Shown piece by piece: positions 7,708 through 9,142 of a DNA stretch of 64,000 nucleotides. The translations under genes and the position numbers were made by a program. The stretch is from contig NZ_JACHLN010000001.1 in NCBI RefSeq assembly GCF_014204495.1, positions 1,488,001 to 1,552,000 of the forward strand, in the 5' to 3' direction. The stretch's first letter is position 1. Each line of letters opens with the position of its first letter. This DNA is from Sphingomonas kyeonggiensis. GTDB lineage: Bacteria; Pseudomonadota; Alphaproteobacteria; Sphingomonadales; Sphingomonadaceae. The notes under the pieces were generated by a model. It was not told the origin of the DNA. It ran no database searches and was given only the letters and a program-made list of their open reading frames with translations.

Positions 7708-8250
7708 ATGCGCCGCCAATTGCTCGTCTTCGCCTCCGCGCTTGCCATTGCGGGCTGTTCGGAAACCCCGCCGATCGTGCCGCCGCCGGCGCCCCGGCCG
7801 GTTCCGGTGCCGACGCCCGCTCCGGCACCCGCGCCCACGCCGACCCCGACGCTGGCTGCGGACTGGCGTGACTGGCCGCTGACGCCCGGGACCTGGGCGT
7901 ACAGGCAGGACGGGCGCGGCTCGGTCGCGCTCTATGGCGTGGCCGGGGCCGAGGCGGAGCTGATCCTGCGCTGCGACAATGCGCGCGGCCGGGTGGTGCT
8001 GTCGCGCCGCGGTGACGGTACGGCGAACCTGACGGTGCGGACCACCAGCACGCTGCGCCAGCTTCCCGTCCAGCCGCTGCCTGCCGGCGCCACGCCCTGG
8101 CTGGCCGCCGATCTGGGCGCGCGCGATTCCGTCCTCGACGCGATGGGCTATAGCCGCGGGCGTTTCCTGGTGGAGGGCAACGGGCTGCCGACCCTGGTGG
8201 TGCCCGCCTATGCCGAGATCCTGCGCGTCGCCGAGGATTGCCGCGGCTAG
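7708..8250 (+). CDS. Lipoprotein with proline-rich linker, unknown function
   Basis: A 180-aa product beginning MRRQLLVFASALAIAGC, a lipoprotein signal with the modified cysteine at 17, followed by a Pro/Ala/Thr linker (about residues 22-48) that could span part of the periplasm. The rest (DWRDWPLTPGTWAYRQDGRG ... LRCDNARG ... LRVAEDCRG) is a compact domain with two cysteines. Sphingomonad genomes carry many such proteins without assigned role. It starts 79 bp after uvrB on the same strand and may be read through from it. Confidence 0.75.
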   Translation: MRRQLLVFASALAIAGCSETPPIVPPPAPRPVPVPTPAPAPAPTPTPTLAADWRDWPLTPGTWAYRQDGRGSVALYGVAGAEAELILRCDNARGRVVLSRRGDGTANLTVRTTSTLRQLPVQPLPAGATPWLAADLGARDSVLDAMGYSRGRFLVEGNGLPTLVVPAYAEILRVAEDCRG

Positions 8251-8412
8251 GCATTGGGCTTGCTTCAGCGATGCGGGGAGGGGTTCTGGCCAGCTTCCGG
8301 CCCAGAATTCCAGAATCGCTCAGAAAAAGATTTTATACAAGACTTGTTCTGCGACTCGCGGTGATTCAAATAGTTGGCGTGCCCTTCGAGTGCACAGGCT
8401 TCTTCAACTAGC

Positions 8413-8427
8413 GAAAGGAGGTGATCC
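8413..8427 (+). promoter_or_regulatory. Extended Shine-Dalgarno, 15-nt perfect complement of the 16S rRNA 3' end
   Basis: GAAAGGAGGTGATCC here is the exact reverse complement of the conserved 16S rRNA tail GGATCACCTCCTTTC. Ordinary sites in this window pair over 4-7 bases. The core AGGAGG ends 7 nt before the ATG at 8429, the optimal spacing, so a ribosome should bind the short ORF extremely tightly. Confidence 0.8.
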
Positions 8428-8428
8428 G

Positions 8429-8485
8429 ATGTCTCATGGTTCAGCAATGGGGTCGGTTCAGTTCGTTCGGGAGACGCACCGCTAA
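8429..8485 (+). CDS. 18-aa small ORF (leader-peptide candidate)
   Basis: ATG at 8429 to TAA at 8483-8485 encodes MSHGSAMGSVQFVRETHR. The evidence for translation is the exceptional ribosome binding site at ideal spacing; the peptide has no recognisable domain, no signal sequence and no run of a single amino acid as in classical amino-acid attenuators. The ORF is followed at once by stable RNA hairpins and a terminator. It could be a leader peptide whose translation controls the RNA fold, or a ribosome-capturing decoy. Only conservation of the peptide across relatives would separate these possibilities. Confidence 0.5.
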   Translation: MSHGSAMGSVQFVRETHR

Positions 8486-8618
8486 GCTTCAGGCGCGATC
8501 GGAAGCCCTCCGATCGTACGGCGCCGGGAGGTATTCTCCTCCAATCAACGGCGTCAGTCCGAAGCAAAGCGGTCCGCATGGTCTCCCGGGCTGGAGCTTC
8601 CGGCCGCTGACCATGTCG

Positions 8619-8665
8619 GAGGTCGCCGGGTCGTCGGGAGACGCCCCGGCGACCTCTTTCATTTT
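8619..8665 (+). terminator. Strong intrinsic terminator in front of the 8678 gene
   Basis: Twelve-base perfect arms GAGGTCGCCGGG (8619-8630) and CCCGGCGACCTC (8645-8656), with an inner CGTC/GACG stem, are followed by TTTCATTTT. The next gene's Shine-Dalgarno (ggggag, 8666-8671) begins immediately after the tail, leaving no room for a promoter between, so that gene depends on read-through or on a promoter inside the leader. Confidence 0.75.
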
Positions 8666-8677
8666 GGGGAGATGCAC

Positions 8678-9142
8678 ATGGCAATCGCATTGCGCATCGC
8701 CGGTCTGGTCCTGCTTCTTGTCGGCGCCGCGCCGCCGCAGGACGGTGCCAGGCAGGCCCGGTTGATGGACCGGATCGAGCGCATGCTCGTCCTGCCGAAA
8801 GGTGCGCAACCCTTCGCCCGTTATGGCCGCAACTATGCGCTTGCCGCACCCGACACGGTCCGCGCGGTTTATATCGTGCCGCCGTCGCCGAGCACGAGCA
8901 CCGCATGCACGGTCGTCCTGCCGGGAGACCGCTCGCGGCCCTGCTCCCGCGCGGAAATCGCGGAAATGGCGCGGGAGGAGAATGCCGCCATTGCCGGGCA
9001 GGCGCGGGCGGGGCAGCGGCGCTGGTACGCCAAGGCGTCCAGCCTCCCCCTTGTCGATGATGGCGGCTGCACCGTCGTGACGATCGAGTACAGCATCTCG
9101 CGGAACAGGATCCTCAGCACCGCCTGCAACGGCGTGGGTTGA
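8678..9142 (+). CDS. Small secreted protein of unknown function
   Basis: A 154-aa protein with signal peptide MAIALRIAGLVLLLVGAAPP and a mature part with four cysteines (TACTVVLPG, RPCSRAEIA, GGCTVVTIEY, STACNGVG) that may form two disulfides. The second ATG (8678) is preferred to 8672 because the GGGGAG at 8666-8671 then sits at normal spacing. It lies directly behind the intrinsic terminator of the structured leader, so its expression is probably conditional. It is convergent with glsA, with only 9 bp between the genes. The family is not recognised. Confidence 0.7.
   Translation: MAIALRIAGLVLLLVGAAPPQDGARQARLMDRIERMLVLPKGAQPFARYGRNYALAAPDTVRAVYIVPPSPSTSTACTVVLPGDRSRPCSRAEIAEMAREENAAIAGQARAGQRRWYAKASSLPLVDDGGCTVVTIEYSISRNRILSTACNGVG

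Follow-up and report, generated by a model that had tools for sequence, protein, structure and literature searches.

The window, by which we mean the whole stretch of 64,000 nucleotides analysed here, probably contains a free-standing small RNA gene of ~280 nt with its own putative promoter and terminator. The RNA combines a near-maximal Shine–Dalgarno (SD) sequence with a short open reading frame (ORF), whose start and stop are kept and whose peptide is not, and this ORF would be locked by the 3′ end of the same molecule, so that translation itself may be the signal. The reading that we prefer, with a probability of roughly 0.45, is a ribosome-gated RNA in which a long-range helix would compete with the initiating ribosome. 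By sequence comparison, the element forms a new branch among RNAs of the CC2171 type, beyond the reach of the current Rfam model at its cut-off. Its features and the upstream neighbour are listed below.

7708–8250, plus strand: lipoprotein-like gene, a syntenic neighbour outside the RNA, found upstream in sphingomonad-type loci
8343–8371, plus strand: putative promoter, with –35 CTTGTT (8343–8348), 17-nt spacer, and –10 TCAAAT (8366–8371)
8379–8395, plus strand: 5′ hairpin P0, GTGC...GCAC, where the transcript is presumed to begin, with covarying pairs
8413–8427, plus strand: extended SD, a 15-nt complement of the presumed 16S tail, exact in relatives
8429–8485, plus strand: ORF MSHGSAMGSVQFVRETHR, 18 codons, stop TAA; start and stop position kept, peptide not
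8435–8456, plus strand: 5′ strand of helix P1, from codon 3 to the first base of codon 10, supported by the fold and by swap-test covariation
8469–8475, plus strand: 5′ strand of helix P2, GGGAGAC, codons 14–16, with canonical pairs and both-side changes
8496–8516, plus strand: body hairpin CGATCGG...CCGATCG, in some Sphingomonas-type copies only
8518–8555 (ends approximate), plus strand: second body hairpin GGGAGG...CTCC with an outer stem
8581–8587, plus strand: 3′ strand of P2, GTCTCCC
8600–8615, plus strand: 3′ strand of P1, CCGGCCGCTGACCATG, adjoining the terminator
8618–8656, plus strand: intrinsic-terminator-like hairpin with a covarying stem; U-rich tail at 8657–8665

Architecture of the unit and its neighbouring genes

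The RNA unit fills the gap between the lipoprotein-like gene and a 154-aa gene (8678–9142). The stable hairpins and the terminator that an earlier note on this DNA had pointed out are both borne out. The region 8330–8677 folds with –160.8 kcal/mol, compared with –130.5 ± 5.3 kcal/mol for its shuffles (z-score, –5.67; none of 100 shuffles as good), and the terminator-like hairpin is also detected at 8618–8656 by a generic scan, 0.6 such sites being expected by chance in 601 bases; the stem that covaries in relatives is the better evidence for a terminator. The pairs of P0 covary among 48 Sphingomonas-type sequences (in one pair, CG 17, GC 15, AT 5, GT 5, and TG 4), and 40 and 41 of the 48 keep canonical bases at its two end pairs. 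The 5′ end would lie near 8379, as suggested by the CTTG/TCAAAT pair together with this 5′ hairpin, and the transcript start at 8330 given in the earlier note is probably too early.

For the promoter, the stronger sign is the position of CTTG upstream of the element. Among 201 occurrences in 170 loci, counted without thinning for kinship, 52 lie at –83 to –87 and 54 at –64 to –69 from the start codon, forming two clusters. The promoter score shows a modest excess over shuffled sequences (9.72 vs 8.84), with the best positions scattered and with a scored stretch too short to include a promoter having its –35 near –66. A generic sigma-70 scan of 8200–8800 returned no promoter, either at the CTTGTT/TCAAAT pair or just before 8678.

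The lipoprotein-like gene lies upstream in 97 of the 102 sphingomonad-type loci with at least 900 nt of upstream sequence. It is on the same strand in all 103 loci where it was matched, and for 84 of these 103 the match stops no more than 260 nt from the SD. The constancy of this same-strand neighbour would suit a 3′-UTR element that belongs to the lipoprotein mRNA and protects or ends it; however, the gene was found near none of the 33 other loci, and promoter-like CTTG at the preferred distances stands between the gene and the RNA, so that such an element is hardly probable. The gene itself matched no Pfam or NCBIfam family, and may be regarded as an unnamed family deserving a model.

On the other side, an SD-like GGGGAG (8666–8671) directly follows the U tract, with the ATG of the next gene at 8678. 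It leaves no space for a promoter between the terminator and this gene, as had been noted before, and, because the downstream SD abuts the U tract, the gene may be reachable by read-through in the window's lineage. Its protein, without a Pfam hit at E 1e-4, occurs at only 2 of 149 loci, namely the window and a close relative (locus L142), according to direct tblastn searches from which duplicate loci of the own genome (L001–L003) were dropped; 18 of the 149 loci hold <730 nt of downstream sequence. A glutaminase after the downstream gene was found at 4 of the 149. Across the set of 170 loci, 84 have their nearest downstream gene on the same strand and 73 on the opposite one, and 13 have none, a split that is approximate because the gene caller is a home-made heuristic, and the 157 proteins fall into 88 families. 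The largest family, in 23 loci of one branch, shares the strand of the element and is a class IV aminotransferase at L050, the one locus tested; the second, in 17 rhizobial-type loci, lies on the opposite strand. Single branches keep a downstream neighbour, its orientation differing between branches, and a link to the next gene is conceivable in the 23-locus branch. DUF1127 was found neither in the window's downstream protein nor in nine downstream proteins from other loci, which carry other domains.

Because the downstream genes and their strands vary, the RNA unit is regarded as a gene of its own. A transcription attenuator of the downstream gene, which the earlier note had proposed in the form of a leader-peptide attenuator, is very improbable, even though the downstream SD adjoins the U tract, the same gene follows in both the window and L142, and one same-strand family follows in the 23 loci of another branch. 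It is opposed by the rarity of the window's downstream gene, by the 73 loci with an opposite-strand neighbour, and by the absence of an antiterminator from the single constrained fold that was made; its leader-peptide form also meets a peptide that is neither conserved nor marked by a codon run, as described below.

Two further observations concern the 3′ boundary. At L007, L017, and L019 (one family) and at L009 (another), predicted genes unlike that of the window begin directly behind the terminator, possibly by repeated capture of read-through. In addition, CATTT behind the terminator (window 8657–8671) recurs in many sphingomonad copies.

Distribution and relation to CC2171

Beyond the own genome, BLAST searches gave DNA matches in 34 of 36 genomes of the genus; the two without a match are 84% and 81% complete. 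In the order's other families, none of 24 genomes matched, which is read as divergence too great for DNA BLAST, because motif searches find the element in other families. Of 385 genomes of the class, 56 carry the motif AAAGGAGGTGATCC-N-[AGT]TGTC, each a single time, and the other 329 are without the exact motif; among 299 genomes of the phylum, 43 carry it (by row count, 43 of 86 within the class and none of 213 outside it). The reversed pattern, serving as a control, had no occurrence in any genome listed. Absence of the exact motif does not mean absence of the element, and the term single copy applies to the exact motif, since genomes G010 and G098 carry two RF01867-type hits each. A motif scan of genome contigs yielded at least 119 loci; the titles among the loci listed belong mostly to Sphingomonadales or rhizobial genera, with some Rhodospirillales, plus genera such as Oceanicaulis and Ponticaulis. 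One locus with the exact motif (L128) lies in a metagenome-assembled genome titled Betaproteobacteria, possibly by a mislabel or a transfer.

Both the contig-scan loci and the motif-positive genomes were picked by the SD–start motif, so that the SD in these sets is uninformative on conservation; the BLAST relatives (with a query including the SD), the RF01867 hits, and a search with a free start codon are less biased. Chance or artefact is ruled out by the comparison of the fold with its shuffles, by the presence in 34 of 36 genomes of the genus, and by the zero count of the reversed pattern. The element is a real conserved RNA gene with one exact-motif copy per positive genome. A mobile origin gained no support, as the window element had no match in plasmid or phage collections by blastn, which may miss diverged copies, and a Mesorhizobium copy had no blastn match among plasmids.

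The earlier note could match the RNA to no known family, a view that has to be revised. The window has no Rfam hit at the gathering threshold, and 15 related loci have no RF01867 hit at that threshold; below it, the RF01867 model (CC2171) aligns to the 5′ module at 8405–8454 (E, 4.6e-4; 27.6 bits vs a gathering cut-off of 75). Other Rfam candidates, ftsZ-DE, Gammaretro_CES, ceN47, and RNaseP-T, were judged to be chance matches (E 0.23 or worse). Run genome-wide at E 0.001, the RF01867 model hit 25 of 142 genomes of the class (5 above the cut-off), the window's own genome not being one of the 25, and 1 of 14 control genomes, that of Caulobacter vibrioides. Reciprocally, a sphingomonad covariance model built from 31 sequences matched all 40 tested CC2171-type and other loci (24 of the 27 RF01867-found loci and 16 chosen by the SD pattern), with E values of 0.0015 or better for 39 loci and of 0.021 for the last, and gave one additional hit at E 0.69; because 7 of the 40 matches span <110 nt, these 7 depend mainly on the 5′ module.

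The window RNA shares with CC2171 a CAAC-n-GAAAGGAGGTGATCC-n-start-TCTCAT module and the pairing of the 5′ end of the ORF to a segment before the terminator, whereas it differs in its peptide, its longer body, and its extra hairpins. We read it as a separate, diverged branch of one superfamily with CC2171, and the searches suggest that this RNA superfamily is larger than CC2171 within Alphaproteobacteria. Genome G010, of the window's genus, carries both the CC2171 kind and the window kind (L159 and L177). L159 (G010:C1:805104-805255) is a second, CC2171-like copy with the peptide MSHCHALNAASGTTVIASAGWLRA. In a study on M. huakuii (PMC5596092), MH_s33 is listed as RF01867, and its 215-nt unit is taken here as its transcript. 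In the open-licence literature, within the portions of text available, we found no description of the sphingomonad element or of the SD–ORF–helix design of CC2171, and no report on CC2171 function.

Extended SD, reading frame, and helices

As the earlier note had recognised, the 18-codon ORF is preceded by 15 nt that are perfectly complementary to the 16S tail. This SD, GAAAGGAGGTGATCC, places its AGGAGG core 7 nt ahead of the ORF, which begins with the ATG at 8429. The sequence of the tail, GGATCACCTCCTTTC, is presumed, since 16S genes appear to be absent from the assemblies examined or masked there; in five of five relatives' assemblies, the tail pattern was found only at the element itself. 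Within the own genome of 4.96 Mb, the SD is the sole place that matches GAAAGGAGGTGATCC with at most one mismatch, and a 14-mer allowed up to two mismatches has 2 matches inside the window against 0.27 expected. The exact SD and the start are kept in all 29 loci fetched, out of the 34 same-genus BLAST relatives.

The start codon is ATG, GTG, or TTG in all 30 matching genomes among 210 searched with the first two bases left free, and with the G of the start codon and the following TC fixed. Over 43 representatives, the ORF is 15–36 codons long in every case, compared with 11 and 8 of 43 for the other two frames and with a mean of 13.6 and a maximum of 22 of 43 in 500 shuffles; the 15–36-codon range was taken from the same data on which it was tested. 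Exactly 18 codons are found in 76 of 87 unique sphingomonad-type ORFs, the remaining 11 ending at 15, 16, 19, or 20. When 74 of these 76 ORFs were placed on a parsimony tree, built from the same region as the ORFs, the stop triplet showed 20 changes, always to one of TAA, TGA, and TAG. In the same 74 ORFs, the amino acids of codons 7 and 10–18 are often altered, and no variation occurs anywhere in codon 9 or at the third positions of codons 2–4, in a class defined partly by the amino acids of codons 2–4; no amino-acid conservation beyond the constraint on the RNA was found. The peptides of other clades have little in common past the first residues, sometimes not even those, and no single-amino-acid run was seen in the peptides by eye. 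The natural reading is that ribosomes would translate the ORF and that the stop site would matter, the peptide not. Where the earlier note looked to relatives for a conserved structure or peptide, the structure is conserved and the peptide is not.

The conserved start codon and stop position would also be expected if the transcript were a small, very efficiently initiated mRNA encoding a functional micropeptide, and the unusual length of the SD, a point against the ribosome-gated model, could simply give a small mRNA a strong start site. This explanation is distinctly unlikely, given the frequent amino-acid changes at codons 7 and 10–18 in the 74 sequences, the location inside P1 of codons 3, 4, and 9 among those that do not change, and the dissimilarity of the peptides of other clades past the first residues. 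Among non-sphingomonad loci, L035, L052, L101, L172, and others carry by eye a small hairpin, GAGCAGCCTC/GAAGCAGTCTTC, near the end of the ORF.

A striking structural feature of the coding sequence is its pairing with the 3′ part of the RNA. In P1, CATGGTTCAGC...GGTCGG (8435–8456) is paired with CCGGCCGCTGACCATG (8600–8615). Since P1 is nearly invariant among sphingomonads, its covariation rests on the comparison between clades, in which both strands differ in sequence and yet still match each other. In a swap test with 33 representatives, the own P1 pairing was calculated at –26.32 kcal/mol, compared with –17.57 kcal/mol for swapped strands (none of 20,000 permutations as good), whereas the control segment 5′ of the SD gave –14.44 kcal/mol for own and –13.67 kcal/mol for swapped pairing. 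The own pairing was within the best 10% of swaps in 25 of the 33 representatives and outside it in 8. The swap test requires a detected terminator, which was obtained at a first threshold for 103 of the 170 loci (30 representatives after thinning), and at a lower threshold for 120 (33 representatives after thinning), the 50 loci outside the latter comprising 46 below the threshold, 3 too short, and 1 without a stop in the available sequence. In the first run, the own 3′ segment had no advantage over shuffled ones in 4 of the 30 representatives (z of at least –0.1).

For P2, five pairs are canonical in all of 49 sequences, a set partly picked by the neighbouring CATGGT (CATGGT was required before GCTGACCATG; 51 were found, and 2 duplicates were dropped). 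Changes on both sides occur in five of its seven pairs, and each pair is broken in 2–6 of 31 sequences.

The behaviour of the 3′ strand of P1 also bears on a trans-acting antisense sRNA, in which the SD and the ORF would serve ribosome binding or stabilisation, and translation would free the 3′ region to pair with target mRNAs. A stand-alone gene with a terminator-like hairpin, the filing of RF01867 as an sRNA, and the CCTCC stretches present in the body of the RNA all agree with this possibility. However, the 3′ strand varies from clade to clade, tracking its own ORF, so that no class-wide seed is visible, and we consider an antisense function unlikely.

Proposed ribosome gating and comparison with known systems

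The ribosome-gated model is built on the parts of the unit, the covariation of the helix, the conservation of start and stop, and the lack of a class-wide downstream gene, all of them read from DNA sequence. In this model, the SD, which lies outside P1, would be free for docking of the 30S subunit, and the coding sequence would enter P1 from its third codon, pairing there with the RNA's own 3′ part. Because the coding sequence from codon 3 lies in P1, an initiating ribosome would have to open the helix, and the docked subunit may begin by opening its base to accommodate the start codon. In the closed state, the 30S subunit would be docked on the SD or absent, with the ORF locked; in the open state, the ORF would be under translation and the 3′ strand released. 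Together with the promoter and ribosome binding, we infer these two states and an output, in which the stability or activity of the RNA would report on, or hold back, initiating ribosomes. A ribosome-trapping small RNA, the other suggestion of the earlier note, is compatible with these findings and is the nearer of its two readings.

When the footprint around the start codon (–18 to +14 from its A) was blocked in one fold, the cost was ~15 kcal/mol. In this fold, the base of P1 alone opens, 8606–8612 being unpaired except for one base, and ATG 8613–8615 pairs with CAT 8660–8662 at the foot of the terminator, which would extend the terminator.

A related idea comes from S. meliloti, where a short upstream ORF (uORF) is proposed from mutants to sense ribosome availability (PMC12218461). 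Against the model stands a report on Caulobacter, in which regions of most intergenic ncRNAs are described as untranslated, two previously predicted ncRNAs being translated; the same report finds 75.4% of coding genes to be without an SD (PMC4117421). Also against it count the 8 representatives outside the best 10% of their swaps, the 23 loci with a shared same-strand downstream family, and the 329 class genomes that do not carry the exact motif. According to a further report, bS21 would obstruct the formation of an extended SD helix in E. coli (PMC13009471). A single bS21 match was obtained in the own genome, and the two together suggest that 30S subunits with a free 16S tail would be preferred. 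It is conceivable, though on balance doubtful, that the whole superfamily is engaged by small subunits and serves specifically to sense or store free 30S, in which a 15–17-nt SD duplex would select free 16S tails (for example, those without bS21) and the ORF-to-tail helix would be the on/off switch. The ribosome-gated model raises a testable question, whether an RNA monitors or buffers free small subunits in Alphaproteobacteria.

Three described systems resemble the window RNA in part. The rnTrpL/peTrpL system of S. meliloti is likewise a small transcript with a tiny ORF, but that ORF is leaderless and located upstream of trpE, unlike the ORF of the window RNA. It also contains Trp codons, a feature that the window ORF lacks. 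Closer in design is the uORF in the S. meliloti duf1127_1 leader, which (PMC12218461) begins 30 nt after the transcription start site, gives rise to an accumulating uORF-containing sRNA, and controls the downstream DUF1127 gene through codons 3–10, by RNA sequence and not by the peptide. In that leader, the structure forms between the ribosome-binding site and the codons, and the output is the downstream DUF1127 gene, whereas in the window RNA codons 3–10 pair with the 3′ end, and no downstream gene is shared across the class. The comparison was made by description, and the likeness is offered as an analogy, homology not being claimed. Finally, the extended SD sites of Staphylococcus aureus (PMC13009471) likewise form a longer SD–antiSD helix reaching towards the start codon; there, in a Firmicute, the extension is a general feature of mRNA start sites, whereas in the window it belongs to an RNA gene.
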